Assembly (NCBI GenBank): GCA_026984935.1
Contig: JALSRD010000011.1
Location: 1-64,000 of the forward strand
Length of the DNA stretch: 64,000 bases
Origin: Desulfobacterales bacterium
GTDB lineage: Bacteria; Desulfobacterota; Desulfobacteria; Desulfobacterales; JALSRD01
Reading direction: 5' to 3'
Shown: positions 49-41,498 of the stretch, one piece after another
Layout: every line of letters starts with the position of its first letter
How positions within the stretch are numbered: the first letter of the stretch is position 1
Made by a program: the position numbers and the translations under genes
The notes under the pieces: generated by a model
What the model was told of the DNA's origin: nothing
Database searches by the model: none
The model's input: only the letters and a program-made list of their open reading frames with translations

Positions 49-114
49 CGTTGCGCTCCCTGCTGGCGGGGGTACACAGGTTTCGTTTGCGCTCAAGGGT
101 TGAGGAGGTACATC

Positions 115-921
115 ATGTCCGCTATCACGATTTCCCGGGGATCCTACACCCGCGGCAGGGAAGTGGCTCAAAAGGCCGCTGAAAAGCTGGGTTATGAGTG
201 TATCTCCCGCGAGGTTATTCTGGAGACTTCCAAAAAATTCAACATCCCGGAAGTAAAGCTCGTCCGGGCCATTCATGACGCGCCCTCCATCCTGGACCGC
301 TTCCGCTACGGGAGGGAAAAGTATATCGCTTTCATTCAGGCTGAAATCCTGCGCCGCATGCGCAAGGATAATATCATCTACTGCGGCCTGGCCGGCCATT
401 TTTTCGTACGCGACATCCGCCATATTTTACAGGTCAGGATACTGTCTGACTTCGAGGACCGCGTGAAAAACGAGATGGAACGTGAAAAGATCTCGGCGGA
501 AGCGGCTGCCGCCATCCTCAAAAAAGACGATGAGGAGCGGCGCCGATGGAGCCAGCATTTATATGGCATCGACACCCGCGATCCAAGCCTGTACGATTTG
601 GTGATCAACATCAAGAAGATGAGCGTGGATGATGCGGTGGAGGTCATCTGCAACACCGTGCAAATGGAGCATTTCCAACCCACTGAGCAGTCGCGCCGGG
701 CCATGGAAGACCTGTGGCTGGCCGCCGAGGTCAAGGTGGCGCTGGTGAGCCTGAAGCCCAATATCACCGTTGAAGTCTCAAACGGCATTGCCCTGATCAA
801 GACCACCGCCAGGGAATCACAGGAAGAGGGCTTGATCGATAAAATGGAGAAAATCGCCAGTGCCGTGCCCGGCATCCAGAAGGCCACCATGCAGGTCCGC
901 TGGAAGATCCCGGTGGATTGA
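115..921 (+). CDS. Cytidylate-kinase-like protein with C-terminal BON-like domain (CK-BON 1)
   Basis: This 268-residue protein resembles the cytidylate kinase-like family (Pfam Cytidylate_kin2 type). The N-terminus reads ITISRGSYTRGREVA, where family members usually have a glycine-rich SGG loop. Later family signatures are YCGLAGHFF, WSQHLYG and DPSLYDLV. The last ~65 residues resemble a BON domain (AAEVKVAL, then VSNGIALIKTT, then a VPGI turn). The start is the ATG at 115 behind AGGAGG at 103-108, not the upstream TTG. The reaction is unknown: the degenerate P-loop makes true CMP kinase activity doubtful. It is one of five paralogs in the window and faces the SLC13/CK-BON/two-component operon, whose last gene ends at 997. 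No signal peptide is visible, so a cytoplasmic location is likely. Confidence 0.8.
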   Translation: MSAITISRGSYTRGREVAQKAAEKLGYECISREVILETSKKFNIPEVKLVRAIHDAPSILDRFRYGREKYIAFIQAEILRRMRKDNIIYCGLAGHFFVRDIRHILQVRILSDFEDRVKNEMEREKISAEAAAAILKKDDEERRRWSQHLYGIDTRDPSLYDLVINIKKMSVDDAVEVICNTVQMEHFQPTEQSRRAMEDLWLAAEVKVALVSLKPNITVEVSNGIALIKTTARESQEEGLIDKMEKIASAVPGIQKATMQVRWKIPVD

Positions 922-996: not shown

Positions 997-2586
997 CTAA
1001 TGCGGGACACGCGTGACGGGCAGATAGACCGTAAACGTAGCTCCCTTCCCGACCTCGCTTTCAACGCGCATGAAACCGCCCAGCTGTTCTATGATGTTGC
1101 GTGAGACCGAGAGCCCCAGTCCGGTTCCGCGGCCCTCGGGTTTGGTCGTGAAAAAGGGATCGAAAATCCGGTCCTGAAGGCGCCTTGGGATGCCGGGACC
1201 GTTGTCGGTGATGCTGACAGCCACATATTCGGCCTGTGTGGGTGCATCGACAGTTACGGCGATACGGCCGTGCGCATTTTGCGAAAGTGCGTCCACGGCG
1301 TTTAGCAGCAGATTGACGAAAAGCTGGATGAGCAGTTGGCGATCGCTGTGAACGGGCGGCAGGTTGTCGGGAATACAGGTTTCAATGCGGATTTTCGACA
1401 TCCTGGCCTGACTGGAAACCAGCCGAATCGCCCTGCCGAGCATTTCTCCCAGATCCAGGCGTTTGATTTCCCTTTCACGCTGGCGTGCGAAATCCAGCAG
1501 GTTACGTACGATTTCGCGGCTGCGTTCGGTTTCGCCGACAATATCAGCGAGCATCTCCAGAGCCTCTGCAGGGGGTAGGTCCGCATAGTTTTCCTGCAGG
1601 CTGACGGCGGTCAGCAGGATATTGTTGAGTGGGTTGTTCAGTTCGTGCGCCACACCGGCCACCAGATTGCCGATTGCCCGGATTTTATGGCTTTGCACCA
1701 GAATCTCCTGGCGTTTTTCGATTTCGTCGATCATCTGATTCATGGCGGTGGCCAGTTGGGTGAATTCATCCCGGCGTGTTTTCTTGAATGTGATGCGGGT
1801 GTAATCACCGGCTGCAATACGTTCGGTGAAATCCGTCAAACGTCCCAGGGCAGTGACGATCTTGCGGTTGATATGCCAAGCGGCTGCGAACAGGATGATC
1901 ATCAGAACCGCCAGCAGAATCAGCGGGCCGGTGCGCAGCAGTGAAAATGTCCTGTCGAGGGCCCGGCGCTCCTGGATGGAAAAAGCGTCGGCGTCGGCGG
2001 TGAGCCGGTGGCCGTACTTTCGCAATCGGTGCTGTACTTCAGCACGGACTTCAGGGCTGTGGCCGCCGGCCAGTTTTTGCAGCCCGGCTGCGTAGCTGGC
2101 GAGACTCTTTTGCATGGCGGTCAGCCGGCCGCGGGACATGACCTTGAGGATATCGGCTTCATTGTCCGAGAGGATGCTGCGTGCTTTTTGCGTATGCAGT
2201 AAAGCGTCCCGCAGATGCGTACCGTAAAGAAAGTAGTTTTTTTCAAAGCGGCGCATCTGCGCCGTTTCATGGCGGTATGCATCGGCAAGTTCGAGAAAAC
2301 GGATTTTGTGGTGCACGGCGGGAAGTACGTAGATCGTCCACAGGGTGACCCCGGCACAGTAGACGAAAATTGCCGCAAAGGCCAGTATCAGCCTCAGGCG
2401 GACGGGAAAGCACGCCCGTTGCTGTATCCCCGTGTGCCGGCCGGCAGTAGCGGATTTACGTTCCGCGGCGTCCATGGGCGCGTATACGCACATGGACTCC
2501 CGGGGCCGGTCGGGCGCTTTATTCATGGTGTGGCCGCTGTCGTCCGTCATTGGCACCTGCGGTTTCCCGGTGGATTCGGCATTCAT
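997..2586 (-). CDS. Membrane sensor histidine kinase with HAMP domain
   Basis: This 529-residue kinase has a first membrane segment at about 65-88 and a periplasmic helical region with the motif QMRRFEKNYFL at 110-120. A second membrane segment lies at about 217-237, followed by HAMP. The H-box is GVAHELNNPLNN, and the ATPase domain shows [32 protein letters not shown] and a final TVYLP. It would autophosphorylate and pass phosphate to the single-domain regulator encoded 26 bases upstream. The start is uncertain: no good ribosome site precedes 2586, and several in-frame ATGs occur before the first membrane segment. It is the last gene of the operon that begins with the SLC13 permease at 6511. 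The MRR-x-EK motif is shared with the kinase at 7185. Confidence 0.9.
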   Translation of the reverse strand: MNAESTGKPQVPMTDDSGHTMNKAPDRPRESMCVYAPMDAAERKSATAGRHTGIQQRACFPVRLRLILAFAAIFVYCAGVTLWTIYVLPAVHHKIRFLELADAYRHETAQMRRFEKNYFLYGTHLRDALLHTQKARSILSDNEADILKVMSRGRLTAMQKSLASYAAGLQKLAGGHSPEVRAEVQHRLRKYGHRLTADADAFSIQERRALDRTFSLLRTGPLILLAVLMIILFAAAWHINRKIVTALGRLTDFTERIAAGDYTRITFKKTRRDEFTQLATAMNQMIDEIEKRQEILVQSHKIRAIGNLVAGVAHELNNPLNNILLTAVSLQENYADLPPAEALEMLADIVGETERSREIVRNLLDFARQREREIKRLDLGEMLGRAIRLVSSQARMSKIRIETCIPDNLPPVHSDRQLLIQLFVNLLLNAVDALSQNAHGRIAVTVDAPTQAEYVAVSITDNGPGIPRRLQDRIFDPFFTTKPEGRGTGLGLSVSRNIIEQLGGFMRVESEVGKGATFTVYLPVTRVPH

Positions 2587-2612: not shown

Positions 2613-2990
2613 TCAGGCGGAGGGCGCCCGGGCCGCTTTCTCAATGACGGTCCGCAAATCCCCCGGTTTAAACGGCTTGGCGATGAAATCGAAAGCCCCC
2701 TTGTCCAGCGCCCGGCGCGCAAGATCGACGGACGCATACCCGGTGATAATAATCACTTTGGTCTGTGGGATGTTGGCTCGCACGTACTCCAGAATCTGCA
2801 TGCCGTCGACATCGTCCATGCGCACATCGGTGATGACGATGTCGAATCTCTCTTTTGAAAGGCGCGCTATAGCACTGCGGCCGTCACCGAAGGTTTCTAC
2901 CGTGTAGCCGCTGCTCTCCAGCGAGGGCTTCAAACGTTTTCCCACGATGGCCTCGTCATCCACCACCATGATTTTCAGTTTCTGATTCAT
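2613..2990 (-). CDS. Single-domain response regulator
   Basis: This 125-residue receiver domain has no output domain. The acidic pair is DDE at 11-13, the phosphoacceptor is Asp55 (VITDVRM), and the Thr and Lys switch residues are in ITGY and AKPF. It is the probable partner of the kinase encoded just downstream. Close relatives are at 8699 and 9200; all three share a [TIV]VG-x-RLK motif at the start of helix 1. Without an output domain it must act by protein contact or as a phosphate relay. Confidence 0.9.
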   Translation of the reverse strand: MNQKLKIMVVDDEAIVGKRLKPSLESSGYTVETFGDGRSAIARLSKERFDIVITDVRMDDVDGMQILEYVRANIPQTKVIIITGYASVDLARRALDKGAFDFIAKPFKPGDLRTVIEKAARAPSA

Positions 2991-3048: not shown

Positions 3049-3825
3049 CTATAATCTGGCCAGCAGCCCGCTGGCGGCATGCACTTCGACGAAAGACACG
3101 CCTTCGATGTTGCCGGCCTTGATTTTGATGTCTTCGATGACCTTGTTGCGGTTGCGTCGCGAAACCCTGGTTCTGACGATAATCGTGCCCTTGTGGGCTT
3201 CGACTTTGATGTTGGTGTAATCCTTGAGCAGCTGCGAGCGCACCCGGCTGGAGAGCTCCAGGTCTTTCAGGCAGTTGACAGAGAAAGTGTTTGCTCTGAA
3301 TCGGCTGTCCGCAGACATGGCAACCAACGTCCGGACCGCTTCCGTTTCATCGGTTTCGGCCAGGCGGATCACCGTATCGTACTGCGCCGGATCGGTCTGG
3401 TCCATGTCAAAGGCCGTCAGCGACCACTGACGGCAGAGTTGCTCCAACTGTTTGGCATCGGTCTGTGATGCGCCGGCCGCCTTATCAGTTGTGGAAATGA
3501 TGCGCACGCGGATGGCATGTGACACGCCCAGAACGTATAGATGCGCGGCCAGTCCGTGGCAGACCACGTGGTCTGCCAGCAATTTGTCCAGTGTGGCTTC
3601 CTGGATCAGCGCCAGTTGGCGCCGCCAGTTTTTCTTGAAGATCTGTGCCGGCGGGGTCGCCGCATCCAGCAGCCGGTTCAGCCGTTCTTCGGGAATGTCA
3701 TGTTTCGCGGCGATTCCCTCCAGGATCTCCCGGTCGATATAACGGTATCCCAGTGCGGCGGCCGTTTTTTCGGCAATGCGCCGACCGATTGGATAAGCAT
3801 CTGCCGAGACAACGAAAATGGGCAT
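3049..3825 (-). CDS. Divergent CK-BON paralog (CK-BON 2)
   Basis: This 258-residue protein aligns along its whole length with the CK-BON proteins: GYRYIDREILEGIA near the N-terminus, CHGLAAHLYV in the middle, DPAQYDTVIRL, then a BON-like end (VEAHKGTIIVRTRV). It has lost the SRG of the P-loop region, reading VVSADAYPIGRRIA instead, and the WSQHLYG motif is eroded to WSLTAFD. It is therefore probably non-catalytic or has a changed ligand. The start is the ATG at 3825 with AAAGG upstream; the TTG at 3831 is less likely. It lies between CK-BON 3 and the response regulator in one operon. Confidence 0.75.
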   Translation of the reverse strand: MPIFVVSADAYPIGRRIAEKTAAALGYRYIDREILEGIAAKHDIPEERLNRLLDAATPPAQIFKKNWRRQLALIQEATLDKLLADHVVCHGLAAHLYVLGVSHAIRVRIISTTDKAAGASQTDAKQLEQLCRQWSLTAFDMDQTDPAQYDTVIRLAETDETEAVRTLVAMSADSRFRANTFSVNCLKDLELSSRVRSQLLKDYTNIKVEAHKGTIIVRTRVSRRNRNKVIEDIKIKAGNIEGVSFVEVHAASGLLARL

Positions 3826-3875
3826 ATTCAAACCTTTCTGGCAACAGATGGCGCCGTCTTCAGACCATGGCGCTG

Positions 3876-4685
3876 TTACACCGCCCCGGAGGGGACGGGT
3901 CCTGTACGGATTTCCAGGTTGTTGATGTCGCTGTATTCCGTGCTCAGGGACTGGATGCGTTTTCGCAGTCGGCGCACGGTGCGCTCACCGGCCTGGGTGT
4001 AGACCAGCACGTTGCCGTACTCGCTGGTGACACCGGCATTGGCATCGATCTCCACGATGGCGGTTTTGACCCGGCAGGCCAGATGCAGGTCGTCGAGGCG
4101 TTGTTGCGAGGCGCCGGTGGCGCAAAACTGCCGTTTGGCGGCGGCCTGGCAGATAAAGTCAACCGCATCTTCCACGCCGAGTTTTTGAATCTTAATGACC
4201 AGGTCGTACAGGCTGCTGTCCCAGGGGTCTTTGCCGTAGAGCGCCTGCGCCCACTTGCGCCGTTCCTGATCGTCTTTGAGCAGCAGTGCCCTGGCTTTTT
4301 CAAGGTTGATGTGTTCACGGGCGGCTTCGGCGCGGATGCGGCTGTCCATGTCCGAGATGATGCGCACCTTGAGCACGTGGGAGACGCCCTCGAGGAGGAA
4401 GTGGCCGGCCAGGCCGTGATAGACCACGTTGTCTCTGCGGATACGCTGGATGAGCGCGCTGCGGATGCAGGCGATATAGACCCGCCGGTCGTGTCCGAAG
4501 CGGTCCAGCACGCCGGGGGCATCGTGGATGGCGCGGATGAGCTTGACTTCGGGGATGTTGAAGCGTTTGCTGGCATCCAGCAGTACTTCGCGGCTGATGC
4601 AGGCATAGCCCAGACGCACAGCTACCTGCTCGGCCACTTCTTTTCCCCGGCTGTAGGACCCGCGCGAAATGGTGATGACGGCCAT
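3876..4685 (-). CDS. Cytidylate-kinase-like/BON protein (CK-BON 3)
   Basis: This 269-residue protein has ITISRGSYSRGKEVA at the N-terminus, ACISREVLLDAS, YHGLAGHFLLEGV, WAQALYGKDPWDSSLYDLVIKI and a C-terminal BON-like segment (CRVKTAIVEID, then SEYGNVLVYTQ). The ATG at 4685 has AAAGGA eight bases upstream. It begins 17 bases after the SLC13 permease gene ends and 50 bases before CK-BON 2 starts, so the three are probably co-transcribed. The physical link to an anion permease is the main functional clue. The true substrate is unknown. Confidence 0.8.
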   Translation of the reverse strand: MAVITISRGSYSRGKEVAEQVAVRLGYACISREVLLDASKRFNIPEVKLIRAIHDAPGVLDRFGHDRRVYIACIRSALIQRIRRDNVVYHGLAGHFLLEGVSHVLKVRIISDMDSRIRAEAAREHINLEKARALLLKDDQERRKWAQALYGKDPWDSSLYDLVIKIQKLGVEDAVDFICQAAAKRQFCATGASQQRLDDLHLACRVKTAIVEIDANAGVTSEYGNVLVYTQAGERTVRRLRKRIQSLSTEYSDINNLEIRTGPVPSGAV

Positions 4686-4702: not shown

Positions 4703-6511
4703 TCAGATTCCGTAAATGAGGTAGATCATACCGATCATAACGACGATGAACAGGGCGCTGATGACCAGCCCGGCCCTCATGAAATCGATGCTGCGGTATC
4801 CGCCGGGCCCCATATAGAGCGCGTTTACCTGGTGGGTCGGCAGCAGAAAAGAGTTGCTGGTGGCCAGCCCCACCACCAGGGCGGCCATGCGCGGGTCGGC
4901 ATGTGCCGCCATGGCCATGTTGACCACCAGCGGCACCAGCAGCACCGTAGCGCCCACGTTGGAAATAACCAGCGTAAAAATGGTGGAGAGGATGCCGATG
5001 ACCGTCAGTAAAACGACGGGTGAAACCGTTCCGATGGTCTTGAGTACGGCATGCGCGATCCAGGCGGCCGTGCCCGTGTTCTGGGTGGCGATTCCCAGGG
5101 GGATCAGGCCGGCCAGCAGGAAGATGGTGCGCCAGTCCACGGACTGGTAGGCTTCGTCGATGCTGAGCACGCGGGTGATGACCATGCCCAGCGCGCCGGT
5201 CATCAGGCTGACGGACAGCTGGATATGAAATATCATGATCATGGTCAGGGCGGTCAGCAGCCATAAGCCGGCCAACAGGGCTTTTTCGGGCCGCAGCGTT
5301 TCAACGTCGATGGGCGTGGTGAACAGCAGGCTGCGCTCTTGCTGCAGCACTTTGAGACGCGACCACTTTCCGTAAATGAGGATCGCATCACCCACCGACA
5401 GCTTCAGGTCCCCGATCTCGGCGCGGTAGGTCTGCCCCTGCCGGTAAATGGCCAGAGGCGTCACCCGGAAGCGATCCTGCAGGTTCACCTGGTTCAAGGT
5501 TTTTCCCTCCAGAGCGGATCGCGGCGCCACGACCGCTTCCACGGTACCGGCGTTTTCCGCGGTCACATCGTTCTGGAAGAACTGCAGTCGATCTTTGAGT
5601 TCCATGCCCTCCTTTTGGGCCATGCGTTTGACATCGGAAAGGCGGCCACGCACGACGATATCGATATCGGAGCGGATTTCGGTTTCCGGCGGCGGCGATA
5701 TCAGTTTGTAGTCCGGTGGTTCGGTCAGCGCCACGGTATTGACCAGGTAGCGCCGCCGCAGGTCGTCGACCCGCACGGGGTCGCGGTAATCGGTGAAGTC
5801 CGCAGGGGTATGCAGTTCGTACATATCCCCCATTTCCTTGAGCGCGGCGGGGATTTCCGGAAGGGATTCGTCGTCAGCTGTTTCGGCCGGCTTCTGAGGG
5901 AGGATGAAACGTCCCAGCACGATAAAACAGGCGATGCCGGTGGCCACCAGCGCCAGCCCGATGGGTGTGACGTCGAACAGGCCGAAAGGCTCGAGGTGGA
6001 AAGGCGCCAGCAGGTCGTTTAACAGGATCAGCGGGCTGCAGCCCACCAGGGTGACGGTGCCTCCGAGAATGGCGGAAAAGCCCACCGGCATCAGCAGCCG
6101 GCTGATGGGGATTTTCACCGATTTGCTGATGCGCTGGATGGCCGGCAGAAAGAGCGCCGCCGCGCCGATGTTCTGCATGAAACTGGAAATCAGGGCCACG
6201 GTCAGCGAGATGAAGACAACCACTCTGGAGGCGCTCCCACCGGCCAGGCGCATGATAGGCGCCACCAGCTTGTTGATGATTCCGGTCTTGTCGAGACCGG
6301 CGCCGATGATGATCACCGCGATGATCGAGATGACGGCATTGCTGGAAAATCCGACGAAGGCTTCTTTGGGGGAAACCAGGTGCAATAGGGGCAGGGCCAC
6401 CATCATCAGAATGGCCACCACATCGACCCGTACCCATTCCACGACGAAGAGGAAGACGGCGACGCCGATCATTGCCATCACCAGGATCATTTCAGTCGTC
6501 AGCGGCTCCAT
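4703..6511 (-). CDS. SLC13/DASS-type anion permease with two RCK_C domains
   Basis: This 602-residue membrane transporter has about eleven hydrophobic segments. A central hydrophilic part (about 215-400) carries two TrkA_C/RCK_C-like domains, the second around VVAPRSALEGKTLNQVNL. The paired SLC13 signatures are IISNVGATVLLVP-like in the second half and FMQNIGAAALFLPA in the first. Proteins of this layout are predicted sodium-coupled sulfate, phosphate or dicarboxylate carriers; in a sulfate reducer sulfate is an attractive but unproven substrate. The ATG at 6511 has GGAAAGGAA upstream. It is the first gene of a five-gene minus-strand operon ending in a two-component pair, so the kinase may sense the transported anion. 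Confidence 0.88.
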   Translation of the reverse strand: MEPLTTEMILVMAMIGVAVFLFVVEWVRVDVVAILMMVALPLLHLVSPKEAFVGFSSNAVISIIAVIIIGAGLDKTGIINKLVAPIMRLAGGSASRVVVFISLTVALISSFMQNIGAAALFLPAIQRISKSVKIPISRLLMPVGFSAILGGTVTLVGCSPLILLNDLLAPFHLEPFGLFDVTPIGLALVATGIACFIVLGRFILPQKPAETADDESLPEIPAALKEMGDMYELHTPADFTDYRDPVRVDDLRRRYLVNTVALTEPPDYKLISPPPETEIRSDIDIVVRGRLSDVKRMAQKEGMELKDRLQFFQNDVTAENAGTVEAVVAPRSALEGKTLNQVNLQDRFRVTPLAIYRQGQTYRAEIGDLKLSVGDAILIYGKWSRLKVLQQERSLLFTTPIDVETLRPEKALLAGLWLLTALTMIMIFHIQLSVSLMTGALGMVITRVLSIDEAYQSVDWRTIFLLAGLIPLGIATQNTGTAAWIAHAVLKTIGTVSPVVLLTVIGILSTIFTLVISNVGATVLLVPLVVNMAMAAHADPRMAALVVGLATSNSFLLPTHQVNALYMGPGGYRSIDFMRAGLVISALFIVVMIGMIYLIYGI

Positions 6512-9199: not shown

Positions 9200-9613
9200 T
9201 CAGGAAACGCCCGTGGTGCTTCCGCTTGCGAGGGCATCTGCTGCCCGCAGAATGGACTGACGCAGTTCATCCAGCCTGAAAGGTTTGGTGATGAAGTCGA
9301 AAACCCCCTGGCGAAAAGCTTCGGTGGCGGTTTCGAGCTGGGCATAGCCGGTGATCAGGATGACCTTGATACGGGGGTGGTGTGCTCGAATTTTGGCCAG
9401 CACCTGCATGCCGTCCATACCCTTCATTTTCAGGTCGGTTACGACAATGTCGAAGGGCTGTTCCTGCAGGCGTTGCATGGCGGCTTCGGGGTTTGTGAAG
9501 GTTTCGATGGTAAATCCGATTTTTCCGAAAACATGCTTCAACCTTCTGCCGACGGTGGGTTCATCGTCGATCACCATCAGTCGGGGCGAACTGGGTCTTG
9601 TGGTGTGTTCCAT
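9200..9613 (-). CDS. Single-domain response regulator
   Basis: This 137-residue receiver has LMVIDDEPTVGRRLK, the phosphoacceptor Asp in VVTDLKM, LITGYA and ITKPFR. The ATG at 9613 starts 19 bases after the stop of the PEP-synthase-like gene and is preferred over the upstream in-frame start at 9667, which would overlap that gene. It is an orphan regulator with no adjacent kinase, at the 3' end of the TauE/SafE-TIGR02186-PEP-synthase-like operon. It may take phosphate from one of the two nearby kinases. Confidence 0.88.
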   Translation of the reverse strand: MEHTTRPSSPRLMVIDDEPTVGRRLKHVFGKIGFTIETFTNPEAAMQRLQEQPFDIVVTDLKMKGMDGMQVLAKIRAHHPRIKVILITGYAQLETATEAFRQGVFDFITKPFRLDELRQSILRAADALASGSTTGVS

Positions 9614-9632
9614 GAAGCAGGCCCTTGTTTTT

Positions 9633-12266: not shown

Positions 12267-13051
12267 TGACTGCCGATATTTTTGAAAATCAGGCCCACAC
12301 CGATACCGGCGACGATGGCGACCAGGATGGCCAGCAGGCCGTAAACGGCCGCCCGGCGTGTTGCCAGTTGAGTGAGCTGCTCAACGACACCGGTTTTTTC
12401 GATGCGGATGCTGCCGCTGGCCGAGCCGTTGACCCGGCCGTCTTGGACTGCCAGCACCTGCACCGCGTACTTCCCCGGGGGGGCTTCAAAGGGCCAGTCC
12501 AGCTCCAGGCGGAATTCACCGCCACCTGCGGCCATGTGGACCGCTTGCGGCCTGATGCGGTAAATATTTTCCTGCTCTTTGAATTTAATGAATTCGCCGG
12601 TCCAGAGTGCTTTGTCGATAAATTTCCTGGTGCTGTGGATGATCATTCTTTCTTTCAGCGCCGCGTAACCGATACCTTCTTTTTTCTGCGCTTCGGGTTT
12701 CAGCAGGTCATCCAGTGGTGCTGTCGTATAGAGCATGTAAAGAGACGGAATATTGTCGAAGCGCATGGTGCCCATTTTCATCCAGAGGAATCCGGCGGCT
12801 TTGCCCTTGTACTTCAGGTGGGTCTGGCCGGGCGGCGACTGGATCTGAATAAGGATACCGTCAGCCGGTCCGCTCTGCCCGCTGATCGAAAGCTTTGCGC
12901 CATGATAGCCAAGTGTGATCGCCACCCGGTCCGGGGCAATTTTACAGGTTACACCGAAGGCGCCCGGCGCGTAAAAAAGAAGCAGAAAAGTGGTGGTTGC
13001 GGCAATCGGGGCCAGCGTGCCGCCCGCAAGCCCTTTTAGCAGATGTCTCAT
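12263..13051 (-). CDS. TIGR02186-like membrane-anchored periplasmic protein
   Basis: This 262-residue protein has an N-terminal signal or anchor segment (about 15-33), a long periplasmic part and a C-terminal membrane helix at about 237-256 (YGLLAILVAIVAGIGVGLI). The sequence and layout fit the TIGR02186/Alph_Pro_TM family, whose genes are commonly found next to TauE/SafE-type exporters, as here: the exporter gene ends three bases upstream. It overlaps the downstream gene by four bases. It may be an accessory subunit of the exporter; its function is not established. Confidence 0.75.
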   Translation of the reverse strand: MRHLLKGLAGGTLAPIAATTTFLLLFYAPGAFGVTCKIAPDRVAITLGYHGAKLSISGQSGPADGILIQIQSPPGQTHLKYKGKAAGFLWMKMGTMRFDNIPSLYMLYTTAPLDDLLKPEAQKKEGIGYAALKERMIIHSTRKFIDKALWTGEFIKFKEQENIYRIRPQAVHMAAGGGEFRLELDWPFEAPPGKYAVQVLAVQDGRVNGSASGSIRIEKTGVVEQLTQLATRRAAVYGLLAILVAIVAGIGVGLIFKNIGSH

Positions 13052-13054
13052 CTT

Positions 13055-13993
13055 CTAGTGACCTCCTCCCGGTGCCAGCAGCAATGAGGGGGCCATGACC
13101 AGGCCCAGGATCATTTTCACCGTTACCGCCAGGACGATGACGGCCAGCAGAATTTTTAACTGGTCGCCCTTGAGCTTGCGCCCCAGCACCGTGCCGATCT
13201 GTGCGCCCAGGGTTGAACCGATGAGCAGCAGGATGGCCAGAACGAAATCCACCGTATGGTTGCTGTAAGCCTGCAGAAAGGTCACTTCGACGCAGGTAAA
13301 CATGATTTGAAACAAGCTGGTGCCCACCACCACATGCATGGGCATGCGCAGCATGTAGATCATGACGGGAACCATCAGGAAACCGCCGCCGACACCCATG
13401 ATGGCCGCCAGAATGCCGACAAAAACACCCAGGCCGATGGGCACCAGCGCGGAGTGTGTCACGCCGGATTTGTCGAAATATATCTGTAAAGGGAGAGATT
13501 TCCACAGGCTCTTTTTGGTGCCTTTGAGCTTGGCATGGCTTTCGGCCGACCGTTTGGATACCGGTGTTACGGGGCCCTTTCGCAGGGCGTGCAGGCTTTC
13601 GAAAAACATAAAAGCGCCCACCAGGCCCAGCATTACCACGTAGGTCATTTTAATCAGGAAGTCAGCACCGCCTGTGGCCCGCAGAATTTTAATCACATGC
13701 ACGCCGATGGCGCCGCCGGTAAAGCCGCCGATGAGCAGCATCAGGCCCATTTTGAAATCGACGTTGCCCAGCCGCCAGTGCGCCAGGGTGCCGGAGGCCG
13801 AAGCCGCCACGATCTGGTTGGCGTCGGTGGCGGCGGCGACCGTCGGTGGGATGCCGATCATCATTAAAAGCGGCGTCATCAGGAAACCGCCGCCGACGCC
13901 AAACAACCCGGAAAGCAGGCCCACCAGAAGTCCCAGACCCACAACCAGCCAGAGGTTCACGCTGGTCAATGCAATGGGCAAAAAAATGTGCAT
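13055..13993 (-). CDS. TauE/SafE (TSUP) family anion exporter
   Basis: This 312-residue membrane protein has two similar halves, each with the family hallmark: GLFGVGGGFLMTPLL near the N-terminus and IMGVGGGFLMVPVMI in the middle. About eight membrane segments are separated by a hydrophilic loop at about 150-185. The family exports sulfite, sulfoacetate or related anions. The ATG at 13993 with GGGGAG eight bases upstream is chosen over the in-frame start at 14029. It is first in the operon with the TIGR02186-like protein, the PEP-synthase-like protein and a response regulator. Confidence 0.88.
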   Translation of the reverse strand: MHIFLPIALTSVNLWLVVGLGLLVGLLSGLFGVGGGFLMTPLLMMIGIPPTVAAATDANQIVAASASGTLAHWRLGNVDFKMGLMLLIGGFTGGAIGVHVIKILRATGGADFLIKMTYVVMLGLVGAFMFFESLHALRKGPVTPVSKRSAESHAKLKGTKKSLWKSLPLQIYFDKSGVTHSALVPIGLGVFVGILAAIMGVGGGFLMVPVMIYMLRMPMHVVVGTSLFQIMFTCVEVTFLQAYSNHTVDFVLAILLLIGSTLGAQIGTVLGRKLKGDQLKILLAVIVLAVTVKMILGLVMAPSLLLAPGGGH

Positions 13994-14452
13994 GGCATTT
14001 CTCCCCTTTCTGCAAAACAGCCGCACCACAGGTTCAATCGAAAAGCCTTAAATGGCACGGCTGCTGGTTTCCAGCTGCAGGATCCAGAACACTCGCTGGA
14101 ATAAATTCATAAAACAAAATTGAAGAAAGATCAAATCTAAAAATTCTTTTAAGGGCTGGATTCAGGCGCTGGAACGCTGCGGCGGCGCCTGGCCGACCGG
14201 CGTTCATTGCTATGAACCCCGCGCTGCCTCCTCATGCAGCTGTGCATGCTTGACACCAGTGGTTCCAGGCAGCTTTGGTTTTTGGCGCCGGTTAAAACAA
14301 GAACGTTTTGCCGGGGGCCTAAGGCGATTTCAAGGCAGCCATTTGCGAAGATGCTTCAGTGCCAATAACGGCAGGTTTAAAGTCGCGCCCCAAAATACCG
14401 ATATTGGTGTCGGGGGGAGATTCATCCATGATCGACCTGTGAGGAATTTGAG
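13994..14452. other. Divergent intergenic region
   Basis: These 459 bases separate the minus-strand exporter operon from the plus-strand HDOD-GGDEF gene. I found no gene. An AT-rich stretch at about 14105-14150 is the most promoter-like part, but no clear -35/-10 pair stands out. Confidence 0.4.
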
Positions 14453-31999: not shown

Positions 32000-34259
<2,260 letters not shown>

Positions 34260-34646
34260 AGGTGCCTGCTGTCCGCTGTCGGGCCGGACGTCATACGGGA
34301 TTGCAGCCAGCCTATAGCACATCCACCCTAAGGACTGCAAGCTCAGGCCGGGAGAGTTCTCCCGGAACGGCCAGGCGAAAACAAAGATCCCGGCAGTGGA
34401 CCATAAATAGTTTTGATGGGTGCTGAAGAGGCCGTCAACCCTTCGTGATGGTGATGCGGGACATCTGCCGGTGCCATGGGCATTTGGAGGGGGTTCGGCC
34501 GGGAGACCCCAGTGGTAGGCGGATTTAAGCGCTGCATCTTTGCATACGGAACAGTTTTGGCAACTGAAACGACGCCGCGCTGCCGGTGCATTTTGAACAG
34601 CCTCCACGGCCGGTTTTTCAGCGATCTTCTGAATGCATCAGGCCAG
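34260..34646. other. Intergenic region upstream of cysS
   Basis: These 387 bases separate cysS from the small membrane protein gene, both on the minus strand. Open frames on both strands have no protein-like features. The cysS promoter should be here; no strong consensus is visible. Confidence 0.4.
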
Positions 34647-35069
34647 TCAGCCGGTGGGGATCAGTCCCAGTACCCCGGTCAGCACAATGAACCCGCAAAT
34701 CAGCGCCAGCAGCCCGTAAAATCGATCGCCCTCTTTGAAAAGTACTGCCGAGGAAAGGAAAAGCGCGGGTACGACTGAAAAAACACCCAGCGAGATGCCA
34801 AAGGCAGACATGCCATCCCCAGTTGTCAGATGCGAAAAATACCAGTGCCCCATGGGCAGTGCACCGGTGATGCCCTGCCAGATCCGGGCGGGGGAATCGC
34901 CTCTCCACACCGAGGAAATCCAGTAAGAAGCGGGCGCGAAGTTGTGCCGGGTCGTAAAGGCGATAACCGACCCGAAAACGACGATCAGACATCCCAGCAT
35001 CACGCCCCAGTAGATAATTTGTCCATAGATCAGACCGGCAAAAGGAACTTTCAGCTTTTCACCCGGCAT
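34647..35069 (-). CDS. Small membrane protein, DUF1634-like (module copy 2)
   Basis: This 140-residue protein has three hydrophobic segments at about 11-38, 82-105 and 115-136. It begins KLKVPFAGLIYGQI and has GISLGVFSVVPALF before the last two helices, as in DUF1634 proteins, which are known to accompany TauE/SafE exporters. ATG 35069 with GGGAGGAAAT upstream is preferred over the start at 35081. It follows the exporter gene by 24 bases. Its paralog is at 37311-37763, in the same position of the upstream module. Confidence 0.68.
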   Translation of the reverse strand: MPGEKLKVPFAGLIYGQIIYWGVMLGCLIVVFGSVIAFTTRHNFAPASYWISSVWRGDSPARIWQGITGALPMGHWYFSHLTTGDGMSAFGISLGVFSVVPALFLSSAVLFKEGDRFYGLLALICGFIVLTGVLGLIPTG

Positions 35070-35093
35070 ATTTCCTCCCAATGATCGAATTTG

Positions 35094-36191
35094 TTATCCC
35101 ACCAGCGGAATATGTATCCCGAACGCCCCTCCCACACCCCGGGCAATCAGCTTCAGGGAGGAGAGCACGAGGATGACAATCAGGATTTTGCGCACGAAAC
35201 CGGCCCGGATGCGGATGAGCAGATGTGCACCCAGGATTCCACCCACCACCTGTCCCAGAAGCCACGGGGCCACGACGATCGCAATCAGGGCGCCGTAGGT
35301 GATGTATGTCCAGATGGCGGTGGCGTTGCTGATGGCCAAAAGGACCCCACTGCACGCCGCGGCGATTTTCACCGGCGCCATCATGACGAGATTCAAAGTA
35401 GCGGTGAGAAAGGCGCCGCCCCCCATACCGAAAAAGCCTCCGATGAAGCCCAGCAGGATAAAAATCAGGGCGCCCGGAAGCGCTCTGACCAGCTGGTAGT
35501 CAACGATCTTTCCCAGGGAGCTTTCCCAGTAAGACCCGTTGAGCCCGAGTTTCACAGAAAGTGCGTCAATATGTTCCGGTTCGGGATACTCTGTCTTGCC
35601 CCCTCCGGTGAGCAGAAAATAGGCGATCACCAGCATGAGGATCCCCAGTGACAGGCGCACCATCCCATCGCCGACAGCCCCCAGGGCATCGTGCAGATAA
35701 ATGGCGCAGACACTCCCGGCAAGTGCGCCCACCGTAATGGGCACGCCGCAGAAGAACACGACTCTCAGGTTGGCCAGACGGCTCTTCATGAAGGGCCCCG
35801 ATGAAATCAGCCCGCTGAACATGGCGACCACCAGGCCCGTGGCCCGTATGACCAGGCTGTCCATGGAGGTGAAGCCGAGCATGATGGGGGTGAAAATCAC
35901 GCCTCCGCCAATGCCTGCAACCACCGCGATAATCGCAATGGCGGTGCTGATCAGAAAGGATCCGGCAATGATCAGCCACATGGACGTGGGGGTCAGGTCC
36001 TGAGTTCCCTGTACCTTCGAAAACACGGCCATGAGAAGATAGCCGCCGAGGATGAGGAGAATCAGCAAAGTCAATTCCGGAACACTGGTCACAATGCGTT
36101 TCAGCGTGCCCTTGCTCCGCCGTTGCTTGCCTGGTTTGGCATCTGCTTCCTTTTCCTCTGAAACAGCCGAATCCAGCTCTGCAGGCGCCAT
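35094..36191 (-). CDS. TauE/SafE (TSUP) exporter (module copy 2)
   Basis: This 365-residue membrane protein has a charged N-terminal extension of about 40 residues (EEKEADAKPGKQRRSKG) and about nine membrane segments. The repeated family hallmarks are VVAGIGGGVIFTPIML and FFGMGGGAFLTATLNL. ATG 36191 with AAGGAGGG is preferred over the start at 36221. It lies between CK-BON 4 and the DUF1634-like gene. Exporters of this family carry sulfite or organosulfonates; the exact substrate is unknown. Confidence 0.87.
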   Translation of the reverse strand: MAPAELDSAVSEEKEADAKPGKQRRSKGTLKRIVTSVPELTLLILLILGGYLLMAVFSKVQGTQDLTPTSMWLIIAGSFLISTAIAIIAVVAGIGGGVIFTPIMLGFTSMDSLVIRATGLVVAMFSGLISSGPFMKSRLANLRVVFFCGVPITVGALAGSVCAIYLHDALGAVGDGMVRLSLGILMLVIAYFLLTGGGKTEYPEPEHIDALSVKLGLNGSYWESSLGKIVDYQLVRALPGALIFILLGFIGGFFGMGGGAFLTATLNLVMMAPVKIAAACSGVLLAISNATAIWTYITYGALIAIVVAPWLLGQVVGGILGAHLLIRIRAGFVRKILIVILVLSSLKLIARGVGGAFGIHIPLVG

Positions 36192-36291
36192 ATGCTTTGT
36201 CCCTCCTTCTCGGTTTGGCATGTCTGGTAAACAACAGCATCCGTGTACGCGTAACCTTAGGTCAGCAGCCGGAAGAGATGCGGCCCAATCG

Positions 36292-37101
36292 TCAACTCAC
36301 GTAGTCTTCTCTGTGCTTTGCACCCACATACACCTCCTTTACACCGTCCACGGATTTGGCAATTGCCTCCATGTCCCGAATGAGATCCTTGCCTTCGACC
36401 AGTACCGCCGTTGTGTGAATCTTCACGACCCCTTTGGCGGCGACGACATCGACATCCGGCCTGAGATCCATCAGGGCGGCTTTCACCTGGGTGGCGATGG
36501 CGATGTCTTCCAGGGCCTGCTGGGACTCCGGCGTGGTTTCAAAAGTTTTGCGGGCCACGGTCTTGCAAATCACATCGGCGGCATCATCCGGGGTCATGTT
36601 CCCGAGGTGGATGACCAGGTCGTAGAGGCTGGGATCCTGGATATCGATGCCGTACAGATGCTGGCTCCACTTCCTGCGCCCTTCATCATCCTGCCGGATT
36701 TTCCGCAAGGCTTCCTTTCTTGAAATACCCTCACGTTCCGCCACGTTTTTGACGCGTTCGTCAAGGTTGACGATAATGCGCACTTTCAGCACGTGCGGGA
36801 TGTCTTTTACAAAAAAATGGCCCGCCAGCCCGCAGTAAACCACATCGTCCTTTCTGAAATGTTTGAGAATGGCGGACCAAATGAAAGTGATGTATTTTTC
36901 CTTCTGGTATCCCATACGTTCGAGGATGGACGGCGCGTCCTTGATGGCGTGGTTCAGTTTGATTTCGGGGACGTTAAACTCTTTGGATGCTTCCAGAAGC
37001 ACCTCGCGCGAAAGGCACTCGTACATAAGGGTTGAGCTGACGTTTTCCGAAATCTCTTTGCCTTTGCTGTATACGTCTCTGGATATGGTGATAATTGACA
37101 T
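36292..37101 (-). CDS. Cytidylate-kinase-like/BON protein (CK-BON 4, module copy 2)
   Basis: This 269-residue protein has ITISRDVYSKGKEIS in the P-loop position, ECLSREVLLEASKEF, YCGLAGHFFVKDI, WSQHLYGIDIQDPSLYDLVIHL and a BON-like end (TQVKAALMDLRPDVDVVAAKGVVKIHTT). ATG 37101 with AGGAGG seven bases upstream is clear. It is the first gene of the second exporter module, 100 bases before the TauE/SafE gene. It is very similar to CK-BON 1 and 5. Confidence 0.8.
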   Translation of the reverse strand: MSIITISRDVYSKGKEISENVSSTLMYECLSREVLLEASKEFNVPEIKLNHAIKDAPSILERMGYQKEKYITFIWSAILKHFRKDDVVYCGLAGHFFVKDIPHVLKVRIIVNLDERVKNVAEREGISRKEALRKIRQDDEGRRKWSQHLYGIDIQDPSLYDLVIHLGNMTPDDAADVICKTVARKTFETTPESQQALEDIAIATQVKAALMDLRPDVDVVAAKGVVKIHTTAVLVEGKDLIRDMEAIAKSVDGVKEVYVGAKHREDYVS

Positions 37102-37310
37102 AATGAGACCTCCTGATATGATAGCCGGTAGCCAATAAAAAGTCTTTCTTCTATCCTTTTTTGCGGATGCACGCAAGCGGTTTTGTCGCCAGAGGTTATT
37201 TAAGGCCCTTTGAGGCCGTCAGGCGGGATCCATCACCATGGTGGATTCTTCTGGTATGCCAGGGGATGGCGCCGACCCGCTTTGGCCGTGGAATCATCTT
37301 TTTCGCGACC

Positions 37311-37763
37311 CTAGCGGAGGGCGATGACACCTGTGGCGGCCAGCGTCAGAATGATTGCAATGATCAGTGCCAGAATGGTGAAAAGACCCCGTTTGTACAG
37401 CAGAACCTCTTTTTTGCGGAACATGGATACAAACATGCCCCAGACGCCGATGACACCGCCATAGCAGGCGATCACCAGGCCGATCATTGAAATTTCATCC
37501 CCGTCGATACGTTGCCTGAGGAACCAGTAGTGTTGCGGCATGCGCGAGAACACAGAGTCCCGGGCCCAGATGGCACGCTCTCCCATTCCGGCAAAAAAGT
37601 CTTTCAGGAACGCAGGTTCAGTGATTACACCGCCTCCGGCGACAAACCCGACAACCAGGCCTGCGACGGCGATAGCCATGCCGGCAATCGTGATCCAGGC
37701 GGAGATTTCACCGTAGACGATGCCCTCGAACGGTACATCCGGTTGCAGGGTTTTTTTCTTCAT
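37311..37763 (-). CDS. Small membrane protein, DUF1634-like (module copy 1)
   Basis: This 150-residue protein has hydrophobic segments at about 19-42, 92-110 and 125-148. The start DVPFEGIVYGEI matches its paralog at 34647, as does the motif DGDEISMIG before the second helix. The ATG at 37763 overlaps the exporter stop by four bases (ATGA), which argues for coupled translation and a joint complex. Confidence 0.65.
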   Translation of the reverse strand: MKKKTLQPDVPFEGIVYGEISAWITIAGMAIAVAGLVVGFVAGGGVITEPAFLKDFFAGMGERAIWARDSVFSRMPQHYWFLRQRIDGDEISMIGLVIACYGGVIGVWGMFVSMFRKKEVLLYKRGLFTILALIIAIILTLAATGVIALR

Positions 37764-38737
37764 AGCAGACTCAGCCCGGTGATCACCAACTTGGTTCCGG
37801 TGCCCATCATGATGGCGATCAAGACGTAACGGATGATGCGGGGCTTTACCTTGACCGCAATGCGGGAACCGATTTCAGCACCGAAAATCAAACCCGCAAT
37901 GGTCGGCACGGCATAGACCGGAAAAATGGAATTCGACATGAGGTAGGGGAATACCGCTGCCGTGTCACCGATGCTGATGATGACGGCGCTGGTGGCCGCG
38001 GCAACCTTGAGCGGCACCAGCATGACGAAGTTGAAAAGCGGTGTGATGGCCCATCCTGCACCCAGGCCGAGTGTGCCGGAAATGAAGCCGACCACACAGA
38101 CAACCAGCGCTCCCACCAGGCTGCGGGTGACGCGGTAGCCGATGGGCTGTTTGAGCGGCTGCTTGAACGATGCTTCCCAGTACGCCATGTCCAGCCCGAG
38201 CCTGCGCGTAAAGCGGTCTACCCGCATGACTTCGGGGTATGCGGTCCCTTTGACCAGCAGGTACATCATGCCCACCGCCATGACGATAACACCCAGTGTG
38301 AGCTTGATGACGGCAATGCCGGTGTCTCCGAACCGGCGGGTGATTGTCAGTCCGAACAGTGCCCCGACAACGGCGAAAAGCGTGTAGCAACTCCCCAAAA
38401 AGAGCACCAGCCGGATATTCGCAATTCCCCGGCGCAGATAGCGGCGGGCCCCGATCCGCGTTCCGCAGACCGCGGCCAGCAGCCCGGTGGCCCTCACGAT
38501 GTCCGGATGGATGGATGTAAACCCCAAAAACAAGGTGGTGAACAGGACACCGCCGCCGGTACCGGCGATAATGGATATCGTCCCTATGGCGGTGCAGGCC
38601 AGAAAGACGAGAAAAGCGAAAAGCAGTGGCGAGATAGCGGACACGGGACCAGGTACGGCTGCCGAGACCGTGCTTACATCCAATAGGAAAAGGCCGGCTG
38701 CCATGGCGATCAGAACGATGTGTTTTCTGACCCGCAT
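37760..38737 (-). CDS. TauE/SafE (TSUP) exporter (module copy 1)
   Basis: This 325-residue membrane protein has an N-terminal hydrophobic helix and about eight others. The family hallmarks are IIAGTGGGVLFTTLFL and TLGLGAGWAITPLFNF. It pairs with the DUF1634-like gene by a 4-base overlap. A MITE-like element lies between it and the CK-BON 5 gene upstream, so their co-transcription may have been broken. Confidence 0.87.
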   Translation of the reverse strand: MRVRKHIVLIAMAAGLFLLDVSTVSAAVPGPVSAISPLLFAFLVFLACTAIGTISIIAGTGGGVLFTTLFLGFTSIHPDIVRATGLLAAVCGTRIGARRYLRRGIANIRLVLFLGSCYTLFAVVGALFGLTITRRFGDTGIAVIKLTLGVIVMAVGMMYLLVKGTAYPEVMRVDRFTRRLGLDMAYWEASFKQPLKQPIGYRVTRSLVGALVVCVVGFISGTLGLGAGWAITPLFNFVMLVPLKVAAATSAVIISIGDTAAVFPYLMSNSIFPVYAVPTIAGLIFGAEIGSRIAVKVKPRIIRYVLIAIMMGTGTKLVITGLSLL

Positions 38738-39150
38738 GCTATCTCCGTCTGTGTTCGCGGCTGCTTTGAGCGTCTCGAAAAATCAGGAAATCCGGCTGAC
38801 AAGCAGTGCAATTGGCGGCGCTGCTGAAAATGCTCTATATTTATACCTGAATCTTGCACAGACAATTTTGAAAACTTATAAAATTGTAATGTTATCTCAT
38901 GGTTGTCTATGGATGCAGCCCGATAATTTTCAGCGTCATTGGTATGTTCGGAAACCTTCCATTTTGATTTCAAAATTGTCTGCCCTGCGGGAGCGCCGAT
39001 TTTACCGCATCGACTGTGTCGCAGGGCATTTGCGTTCTGTATACTACAGCTGCATGCCCTGCGCCTTGTATAGGCGGCAAACGCGACGCTTGCAAAACTC
39101 AGGTTATAGTTTAGGCATCTTCGAGATTTTCGGGGCTTTTTGGGCGCCCA
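38738..39150. other. Intergenic region containing a MITE-like element
   Basis: These 413 bases lie between CK-BON 5 and the TauE/SafE exporter, both minus strand. Most of the region is the transposable element at 38846-39103. Without it the spacing would be about 150 bases, close to the 100 bases of the other module. Confidence 0.6.
38841..39108 (+). mobile_element. MITE-like element, copy A, with target duplications
   Basis: The element occupies 38846-39103 (258 bp). Its left end is CCTGAATCTTGCA and its right end TGCAAAACTCAGG, forming imperfect 13-bp terminal inverted repeats. It is flanked by the direct repeat TTATA at 38841-38845 and 39104-39108. Inside is a perfect inverted repeat of 13 bp (GACAATTTTGAAA at 38861, TTTCAAAATTGTC at 38968) and another pair TGCCCTGC/GCAGGGCA. 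It carries no transposase, so it is non-autonomous. Copy B at 47663 matches it along its full length. Confidence 0.88.
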
Positions 39151-39960
39151 TCAATCATAGTGGCGTACGACATGGCCGGTCTCAACTGCAACATCCCCGA
39201 CGCCCGGGACAGACCCGGCAATTCTGATGATTTCGCTGCACAGTTCCGCCTCTCTGGACTCCTCGATGTCCGTCTTGATATGCACGTGGCCGTTTTGGGC
39301 AGACACGTCGATGTCGGGCTTGGTTTCCACCAGGGCGGCTTTGACGCGCGCGGCAAGGGCCAGATCTTCGAGCCTGCGCCGGGATTCTGTCGTGGTTTGA
39401 AAGCGTTTGAGGCGGATCGTTTGGCAGATAATCTCGACCGCCTCATCGACGGAAAGGCCGGCGATGTTGAGCACCATGTCGTAAAGGCTGGGGTCCCACG
39501 TGTCGATTCCGTACAGGTGCTGGCTCCATCGCCTGCGGTCATTATCCTCCCGTTTGATAATGAGAGCGGCGTTTTTGGGGCCGATGGCTTCGCGTTCAGT
39601 CAGGGTGCGGACGCGTTCCTCCAGGCTGGTGATGATGCGAATCTTGAGGCCGTGGGATACCCCCTGGATGAAGAAGTGGCCGGCCAGACCATGATAAACA
39701 ATGTTGTCCCTGCGCAAAATTTCCAGCAAGGTCGCCTGAAAAAAGGCCAGATAGCGCTCGCGTCCGAAAAGGAAATGGTCGGAGAAGGATGGCGCATCGT
39801 GGATGGCGCGCATGATCTTGGCATCGTGGATATTGAAATTCTTGGCCGTGTCAAACAAAACTTCCCTGGCGATACACGCGTAGCCAAGCTTTTGGGCAAC
39901 CTGGATGGCAACTTCCCTGCCCCGGCTGAAGGGGCGCCGGGATATCGTGATGATGGACAT
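39151..39960 (-). CDS. Cytidylate-kinase-like/BON protein (CK-BON 5, module copy 1)
   Basis: This 269-residue protein has ITISRRPFSRGREVA, ACIAREVLFDTAKNF, YHGLAGHFFIQGV, WSQHLYGIDTWDPSLYDMVLNI and a BON-like end (ARVKAALVETKPDIDVSAQNGHVHIKT). ATG 39960 has AAGGAGGG upstream with rather long spacing. It heads the first exporter module but is now separated from it by the MITE-like insertion. Confidence 0.8.
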   Translation of the reverse strand: MSIITISRRPFSRGREVAIQVAQKLGYACIAREVLFDTAKNFNIHDAKIMRAIHDAPSFSDHFLFGRERYLAFFQATLLEILRRDNIVYHGLAGHFFIQGVSHGLKIRIITSLEERVRTLTEREAIGPKNAALIIKREDNDRRRWSQHLYGIDTWDPSLYDMVLNIAGLSVDEAVEIICQTIRLKRFQTTTESRRRLEDLALAARVKAALVETKPDIDVSAQNGHVHIKTDIEESREAELCSEIIRIAGSVPGVGDVAVETGHVVRHYD

Positions 39961-40649
39961 GGCCGCTGGCACCCTCCTTTCAGTTACTTTTCCGAGGCGC
40001 AACTGTTGAAAAGGCGGGGGGCCGCATGGTATGGCGCCGAGGTTTTCCGGCGCTGCAGCCCGGACTGGTTGTGCGCCTTCCCGTCAAAAAGTCAAGGCCA
40101 AGCTATTCCTTCCAAAAGCCATCCGGTGCGATGCCGGCGGCACTTTCTGCGGTCAGTTAGCAACAAGGCAACACGTGGCAACTGAAAACTAAAAAGCGCA
40201 CTTTGACCCTTAGTAAACGCAGCACTTATCAGAACTGAAGTCAAGAAGATTTTCCAAATTTTCGATGAAGCCGGCAATTGAATGCATGCTTTCATCGGCT
40301 GTGCCGGAAAAGATGATGTGGGCCTGTTCTGCAAAGGATCGGCTGCGGCAGTTTTTCTGCCCGGATCGTTAAAGCCGGTGCGCTGCAACCATGCCTGTGG
40401 ATCAGGCATTCGCAACTGGCAGCGGAAAGCGGAAGGTGCGATACCCTTGGTCGTCTGGCTCGGAAATGCGGTGGTGCAGCGAAACTTTCCAGGGCGTCAG
40501 TCCGGTCAGGCGAAGCATGGCCGGCAAGGCGCAGCGATTTCGGCAGATCGGCAATCCGCCGCAGTCTGCGCAACGCGTCCGGATGCCATGGCGACTGGAC
40601 GGATGAAAACCATGGCACTTTGAAAATGCCCGCTTGCGTTGGGGGGGGG
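39961..40649. other. Gene-poor region, possible decayed sequence
   Basis: These 689 bases have no convincing gene. On the minus strand at about 40210-40360 one frame reads sensibly (FAEQAHIIFSGTADES, then FIENLENLLDFSS) before a stop, but lacks a start and a recognisable family, so it may be a remnant. A run of nine G lies at 40641-40649, directly beyond the stop codon of the STAS gene. No promoter is clear. Confidence 0.35.
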
Positions 40650-41000
40650 TCAGTTGCCGGACGGGGTGTTGAAGCTCTGCAGCGCTTTCTTGTGACAGGA
40701 AAACAGCTCGATCTGCTTGTGCAGGCGCAACATCATGAAGGGGCGTTGGATATGCCGCTGCAGGCCGGCCAGTTTGACATCGCCGCCTTTGGCCCTGCAG
40801 CGTGCGACAAACTTAAAAATCGTGCTCATCCCGAAGCTGTCGATAAACCGGACTCTTGCAAGATCGACAATGACCCGCGGTGCCGGATCGCCGGAGCGGA
40901 AATTGACCAGCCGGCGAATCGAAGCCGGGTTGCTGGCTACCAGGTAGCCGGAGAGGCGAATGGTCACCACGCCTGCGCTTGTTTCTTCATCTAGCAGCAT
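40650..41000 (-). CDS. STAS-domain anti-sigma-factor antagonist
   Basis: This 116-residue STAS domain has VIVDLARVRFIDSFGMSTIF, which keeps the phosphorylatable Ser after Asp, unlike the STAS protein at 20120. AGAGGA precedes the ATG. Such proteins bind anti-sigma factors or HPK-like kinases in partner-switching control. No partner kinase or phosphatase is adjacent, so its circuit must be elsewhere. Confidence 0.82.
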   Translation of the reverse strand: MLLDEETSAGVVTIRLSGYLVASNPASIRRLVNFRSGDPAPRVIVDLARVRFIDSFGMSTIFKFVARCRAKGGDVKLAGLQRHIQRPFMMLRLHKQIELFSCHKKALQSFNTPSGN

Positions 41001-41498
41001 GATCGTCGGTCCTCTTTAAACGCCCATTTCACGCCTGTCAACAGGAAATTCGCGGTGGTTTTAAAAAATATCAGCTGCAAGAAACGGGCCGATGTGCTTC
41101 GGCTGCGGCTGCACTTTTGCATAGGTGCGCTGCAGAACCTTCAGAATTGTTTCGGGCATCCATCGGGCAGGCCTCCCGGGTACGGGTATTACCTGTGCAG
41201 ACGCACTTAAAAATTAATTGTTACAACAGGTTGTATCTCACATGGGAAATTTGGCATCAGGCGGTTTCGGTTCTGGCAGGAATCGTAGGGGCGCAACGAA
41301 AAGGGGCTTTGGGCGACCACGGCGGTTTGCAGGAGCCGGAAGGGGGGTACAAATTTTTGGAAAAATATACCACAATGTTGGGAAAAACTTTTCCGCTTCT
41401 GATCTGCACAACCTTTTGGACCGTCGGCCTTCCTGCGTTTGAAAGCAGTATGCGGGGGTTTTTCGGATTGCAGCGAAGGCGCGTTGCGCATTCGATTT
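41001..41498. other. Intergenic region, no gene seen
   Basis: These 498 bases lie between two minus-strand gene groups. They contain ATTAATTGTTAC near 41215, resembling part of the palindrome at 35-48, and an AT-rich stretch at about 41355-41395. I see no supported gene or terminator. Confidence 0.35.

Follow-up and report, generated by a model that had tools for sequence, protein, structure and literature searches.

A stretch of 64,000 nucleotides from a Desulfobacterales bacterium (assembly GCA_026984935.1, contig JALSRD010000011.1, positions 1 to 64,000; hereafter the window) carries two sets of three genes, each encoding a protein that joins a cytidylate kinase-like domain to a BON-like domain (CK-BON), a TSUP (TauE/SafE) carrier and a small membrane protein. 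CK-BON may represent a cytoplasmic accessory or regulatory partner of anion transporters, a proposal to which we give roughly even chances of being right. It builds on the gene order, on the recurrent same-strand adjacency of CK-BON genes to unrelated anion carriers, on the predicted fold, on the loss of the P-loop Ser/Thr and on receiver-domain fusions in relatives.

The Two Gene Sets

The six open reading frames (ORFs) all lie on the minus strand, each with a recognisable ribosome-binding site, and were placed and ordered correctly in a preliminary description made from the letters of the window only. The first set consists of CK1 (39151..39960, 269 aa), with a PF13189 kinase-like domain at residues 1-185 followed by the BON-like domain at residues 191-263, Tau1 (37760..38737, a TSUP carrier of 325 aa) and SM1 (37311..37763, a small membrane protein of 150 aa), the last two sharing the ATGA overlap (37763/37760) already reported in that description. 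The second set is formed by the CK-BON protein CK2 (36292..37101, 269 aa), the TSUP carrier Tau2 (35094..36191, 365 aa) and the small membrane protein SM2 (34647..35069, 140 aa). Spacing is uneven, with 413 nt between CK1 and Tau1, 100 nt between CK2 and Tau2 and 24 nt between Tau2 and SM2. A promoter scan of 34500-41100, which is weak evidence, returned six promoter-like matches, all on the plus strand, so that no split of either set is visible on the coding strand.

Of the family names first proposed, two are confirmed by Pfam and two stay under its cut-offs. In particular, the CK proteins score 122.3 and 141.3 bits against Cytidylate_kin2 (PF13189; gathering cut-off 28) and Tau1 and Tau2 score 115.1 and 111.4 bits against TauE (PF01925; cut-off 32.6), while BON (PF04972; cut-off 27) reaches 21.4 and 12.4 bits in the CK proteins and DUF1634 (PF07843; cut-off 27.5) 17.5 bits in SM2. 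SM1 has no Pfam match of its own, to DUF1634 or otherwise, and is called DUF1634-like by its homology to SM2 (26% identity, E 5e-12). The SM2 model predicts long hydrophobic helices flanking a short loop domain; a known fold was sought for it with Foldseek against the PDB and discarded, as the best match (E 0.4) is uninformative. Alignment of the TauE proteins to PDB sequences gave nothing at E 1.

CK-BON Genes Recurrently Adjoin Unrelated Anion Carriers

A genome-wide scan provided 80 loci with flanks of up to 10 kb (loci are numbered L), which together with loci from related genomes make up 104 distinct CK-BON loci, the neighbouring genes being called by a simple ORF picker. An anion transporter is immediately adjacent in 29 of the 104 (TauE in 15, SulP in 8, CitMHS/DASS in 5 and CLC in 1), in all 29 cases on the strand of the CK-BON gene and at gaps of -32 to 681 nt, mostly below 300. 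Thus, the neighbourhood link to anion transporters, on which the preliminary description had staked its proposal, holds. Other immediate neighbours are nuoN-type genes (4 loci), MFS transporters (3) and a Na+/H+ exchanger (1).

Within the 80 long-flank loci, TauE, SulP and CitMHS account for 16 of 152 adjacent genes as compared with 3 of 439 distant ones, defined as four or more genes away from CK-BON (odds ratio 17, p = 9e-8); in the same test TauE and SulP are each enriched separately (p 1.4e-4 and 1.1e-3, respectively). TauE is also the commonest family among adjacent genes in a Pfam tally of 111 adjacent proteins, 8 of which were entered manually, while among distant genes TauE and SulP fall outside the top 25. 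The TauE neighbours of L038, L091 and L105 had been lost to frame conflicts and were added by hand after confirmation by BLAST and, later, by Pfam.

The adjacent carriers come from at least four superfamilies, and some of these occur in more than one arrangement. TauE occurs as CK-TauE-small protein in the window and L038, as CK-TauE-CK in L091 and as Usp-like protein-TauE-CK in about nine loci; SulP as CK-SulP in L074, L097, L101 and L116 and before a CK-BON protein fused to a receiver domain (CK-BON-REC) in L079; CLC as CK-CLC in L084. CitMHS-CK-CK', where CK' is a divergent CK-BON paralogue, is found in the window, in L025 of the same genus and in L027, L035 and L037; for L025 and L035 the CitMHS assignment comes from a local profile, for L027 and L037 from Pfam.

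Two clusters can also be described. The recurrent Usp-like/TauE/CK-BON cluster is present in L063, L068, L072, L073, L076, L082, L083, L086 and L090; its Usp-like member, of about 260 aa, combines a Usp-like N-terminus with a transmembrane helix, the L073 copy having no Pfam match, and in several of these clusters a gene of about 670-680 aa lies divergently upstream, one clustered relative of which, from L051, fuses a response regulator to a Lon protease. In L043, L046, L052 and L056 (at about 4.5-14 kb), CK-BON follows nuoL-nuoM-nuoN-like genes, with an sdhC-like gene next in L046, L052 and L056.

A Predicted Kinase Fold with an Altered P-Loop

The CK1 model (predicted local distance difference test, pLDDT, 89.7; predicted template-modelling score, pTM, 0.86) assigns residues 1-188 to a putative nucleoside monophosphate (NMP) kinase fold, with the best PDB matches to 3hdt (Z 18.5) and 3fdi (Z 17.5), followed by CMP kinases at Z 13-14. 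Residues 191-263 are predicted to adopt the alpha-beta-beta-alpha-beta topology of BON domains with pLDDT mostly >88, and by sequence there is a match to OsmY (8rjx) at E 0.003. The P-loop pattern of catalytic CMP/NMP kinases, GxxGxGK(G)[ST] with Lys and Ser/Thr, is absent. Indeed, the Ser/Thr position holds V or I in all 53 aligned sequences, while the Lys position holds K or R in 46 of 53, with Arg in CK1. R8, R32, H95, R108, R116, D139, R142, D153, D156 and D161 are each kept in no fewer than 48 of the 53, and these Arg, Asp and His residues argue for a retained ligand site. We infer that CK-BON is a nucleotide-binding protein whose catalysis has been altered or lost.

These features also bear on the possibility that CK-BON is a working nucleotide or small-molecule kinase, which, after import, would process the substrate of the carrier or a metabolite related to it. 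The NMP-kinase fold with its many conserved polar residues, the frequent retention of Lys or Arg in the P-loop and the presence of adenosine 5'-phosphosulfate kinases and shikimate kinases among the weaker structural matches are compatible with an enzyme. However, the Mg-coordinating Ser/Thr is replaced throughout and CK1 has Arg for Lys, the scores against the NCBIfam (d)CMP kinase equivalog (49.9 and 49.1 bits) are far below its cut-off of 102.1, and four unrelated carrier families would require a shared substrate, so that we regard a catalytic role as quite improbable.

As a separate observation, the CK1 model weakly matches a kinase-like subunit of mammalian complex I (7v2c_w, 7qsd_O, 9buh_U), which we take to be NDUFA10, an accessory subunit with a kinase shape in a membrane complex.

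Origin of the Two Sets

The preliminary description had used the duplication of the set as an argument that the three proteins work together. The identities between the sets (46% for CK1/CK2, 33% for Tau1/Tau2 and 26% for the small proteins) indicate old paralogues rather than a recent duplication, and the trees do not join them as closest relatives. In the CK tree, CK1 groups with L038 (support 100/100) inside a 12-sequence clade, while CK2 groups with L078, L041, L080 and another CK gene of the window at 100-921 (96/90); forcing CK1, L038 and CK2 into one clade is rejected by the approximately unbiased (AU) test (p 0.0061). In the TauE tree, where the tree program flagged long branches, Tau1 pairs with L038 and Tau2 with L087, then with L105, L124 and L125; forcing Tau1, L038 and Tau2 together is likewise rejected (p 0.0036, and p 0.033 with L087 added).

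Tandem duplication of a three-gene unit was therefore discarded. The same gene order arose either by separate assembly or by very old divergence. This weakens the argument from duplication and at the same time gives the repeated association more weight. Another account, in which a plain tandem duplication produced both sets and CK-BON lies near TSUP genes by chance, can point to three families in the same order twice within 5.3 kb and to the paralogy of their products. In view of the AU rejections, and since the triplet reappears in L038 and in a rearranged form in L105, it appears very improbable.

The TSUP Carrier and Its DUF1634-Like Partner

The Tau1/Tau2 subfamily (E below 1e-50) was sampled in 76 related genomes and has 13 members outside the genome of the window. 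All 13 are directly followed by a gene for a protein of 141-166 aa with three or four hydrophobic segments, and these proteins align with SM1 and SM2. One of them, in the same gene position in genome G018, passes the DUF1634 cut-off with 30 bits, so that SM1 and SM2 are homologous to a recognised member of that family. Thus, the conserved unit is the TSUP carrier with the DUF1634-like protein. The surroundings of the 13 pairs were examined for up to 20 kb, or less where a contig ended, and CK-BON lies near only three of them: L158 (4.2 kb away), L160 (4.4 kb) and L166 (1.8 kb, as CK-BON-REC). This makes it an optional companion and not an obligatory third subunit.

Closer counterparts of the window are also found. 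The window order CK-TauE-small protein recurs once, in L038, with 68, 79 and 71% identity and 12 nt between CK and carrier, its flanks having nothing in common with the window; L105, from Planctomycetota, has TauE-small protein-CK; and in L087 the Tau2-SM2 counterparts lie 1.9 kb after a CK gene, with a response-regulator-like gene between. A triplet of the same three families thus recurs, while the fixed module of the preliminary description, as an obligatory three-gene unit, was ruled out by the contexts of the 13 pairs.

The pairs of L158, L160, L164 and L166 lie near histidine kinases, of confirmed Cache type in L158 and L166, and near NtrC-type regulators, confirmed in L158, which suggests two-component control of the TSUP and DUF1634-like carrier pair.

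Carrier Partner or Signalling Module

Some relatives of CK-BON, of about 410 aa, carry a C-terminal receiver (REC) domain, identified by Pfam in L079 (8721-10001) and L166 (11864-13090) and read by eye in L094 (5397-6719), and L079 encodes SulP, CK-BON-REC and CK-BON in one run. Such fusions fit a signalling role. Many matches of like open-frame length are present in related genomes.

The main rival to a partnership with carriers is that CK-BON serves signalling clusters of the two-component and stress type (histidine kinases, receivers, Usp proteins and response regulator-Lon fusions) as a general output or adaptor module, and that carriers, although often found in these clusters, are not acted upon. 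The receiver fusions speak for it, as do the response regulator and histidine kinase genes that follow CitMHS-CK-CK' in the window, the histidine kinases and response regulators adjacent to CK-BON in nine and four loci, respectively, and the TSUP and DUF1634-like pairs that lie without CK-BON near Cache-type histidine kinases and NtrC-type regulators. However, histidine kinases and response regulators are not clearly more frequent next to CK-BON than among distant genes (p 0.13 and 0.12), as opposed to TauE and SulP, and this weak enrichment favours the link to carriers. In addition, the adjacent carriers share the strand of CK-BON without exception, at short gaps and often with no adjoining histidine kinase or response regulator. 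We thus hold the signalling module to be rather unlikely, if less so than the other alternatives.

Several observations weigh against a role of CK-BON as a carrier partner. No TauE, SulP, CitMHS or CLC gene lies within two genes of CK-BON in 68 of the 104 loci, several of which adjoin histidine kinase, nuoN or sdhC genes instead, and 10 of the 13 pairs have no CK-BON within 10 kb, figures that equally tell against a fixed module. About nine of the TauE neighbours form one orthologous cluster, so that the counts overstate the number of independent events, and in the first set the gap of 413 nt separates CK1 from its carrier.

Other Genes of the Window

Of the seven PF13189 matches and the six above-cut-off TauE genes of the genome, five and three, respectively, lie in the window; with random placement such clustering would have probabilities of 2e-8 and 9e-5, values that are only indicative given gene duplication. 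The preliminary description had missed three of these CK-BON genes and the third TauE gene. The third CK-BON gene (100..921, plus strand) belongs to the same five-sequence clade as CK2. The fourth (3876..4685, minus strand) lies 17 nt downstream of a CitMHS/Na_sulph_symp carrier with a TrkA_C domain (4703..6511, minus strand) and is followed on the same strand by CK' (3049..3831), a single-domain response regulator (2613..2990) and a histidine kinase with HAMP, HisKA and HATPase domains (997..2586), the whole run occupying 997-6511. The third TauE gene (13055-14029, minus strand) belongs to a one-strand run at 9200-14029 with Alph_Pro_TM (PF09608), a PPDK_N/PEP-utilizer protein with an overlapping start and a response regulator, so that the window has a second cluster centred on TauE, composed differently. 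An adenylate kinase, its [11 protein letters not shown]-loop intact, and a cysteinyl-tRNA synthetase were read by eye at 32000-34607, immediately downstream of the second set. The genome also encodes dsrA (610 bits), which makes the host a sulfite or sulfate reducer or an encoder of the reverse pathway.

Proposed Mechanism and Meaning

Ligand binding, physical contact, the direction of control and the substrate are the parts of the carrier-partner proposal that we infer. The kinase-like domain probably has a nucleotide or a similar phosphorylated compound as its ligand and would not be an ordinary CMP kinase, while the BON domain probably contacts the membrane or the carrier. In the window, two different CK-BON proteins would each be joined to a TSUP carrier already paired with a DUF1634-like membrane partner and would act on these complexes, and in a sulfate reducer the flux of sulfur-containing or other anions through the carrier would rise or fall with the binding or release of the ligand. 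The exporter, membrane partner and nucleotide-binding regulator of the preliminary description are thus retained in a broader form, with linkage to TSUP, SulP, CitMHS/DASS and CLC carriers, and lose the fixed three-protein module. A bolder version would make CK-BON a general switch, i.e., one soluble module, driven by nucleotides or, when fused to a receiver, by two-component signals, that docks on TSUP, SulP, DASS/CitMHS and CLC carriers and sets their flux post-translationally, matching sulfur-anion transport to the energy of the cell in sulfate reducers; we consider this unlikely.

Anion entry and exit are the first and last steps of dissimilatory sulfur metabolism, and their control in sulfate reducers is poorly known. 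Should the carrier partnership be true, a kinase-shaped soluble protein would be a common control element for several unrelated anion carriers, and PF13189-BON proteins and the DUF1634-like partner of TSUP carriers would gain a testable role. CK-BON-REC further suggests a two-component output that could act on transport and not on transcription.

Comparison with Known Systems

PF13189, BON, TSUP and DUF1634 are known families, while the association of CK-BON with anion carriers is apparently undescribed, as no paper on it was found. Indeed, a literature search that took in few subscription papers returned none on DUF1634 and none joining a cytidylate kinase-like protein with a BON domain, TauE or carriers; PF13189 appeared in the DolP paper only (PMC7806268), and cytidylate kinase-like proteins are named in a Chloroflexi gene list and in an oral-biofilm study.

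Sulfate reducers are rich in TSUP proteins, the function of which cannot be predicted there according to PMC5840216. The window carriers resemble TSUP carriers with DUF1634 downstream in that they pass PF01925 and are directly followed by a small membrane gene, as are all 13 relatives, and differ in having CK-BON upstream and small proteins below the DUF1634 cut-off. BON-domain proteins such as OsmY, DolP, Kbp and CBS-BON share the BON topology predicted for CK1; CK-BON, by contrast, has no signal sequence, and is thus presumably cytoplasmic, and is fused to a kinase-like domain, a combination that is not among the twelve main BON architectures of Table 1 of the DolP paper (PMC7806268).

The best sequence and fold matches of CK-BON belong to Cytidylate_kin2 (PF13189), whose members 3hdt and 3fdi are solved and uncharacterised; the canonical P-loop is likewise missing from 3fdi in the alignment. 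CK-BON differs from them by its added C-terminal BON-like domain, by the receiver fusions of its relatives and by its linkage to anion carriers.

The STAS domain of SulP, TrkA_C/RCK and Usp are cytoplasmic regulatory domains of transporters. CK-BON, in its proposed role, would resemble them as a soluble, ligand-binding partner of secondary carriers, and STAS and TrkA_C are themselves present in carriers that adjoin CK-BON. Unlike them, CK-BON has another fold and is linked to several unrelated carrier families.

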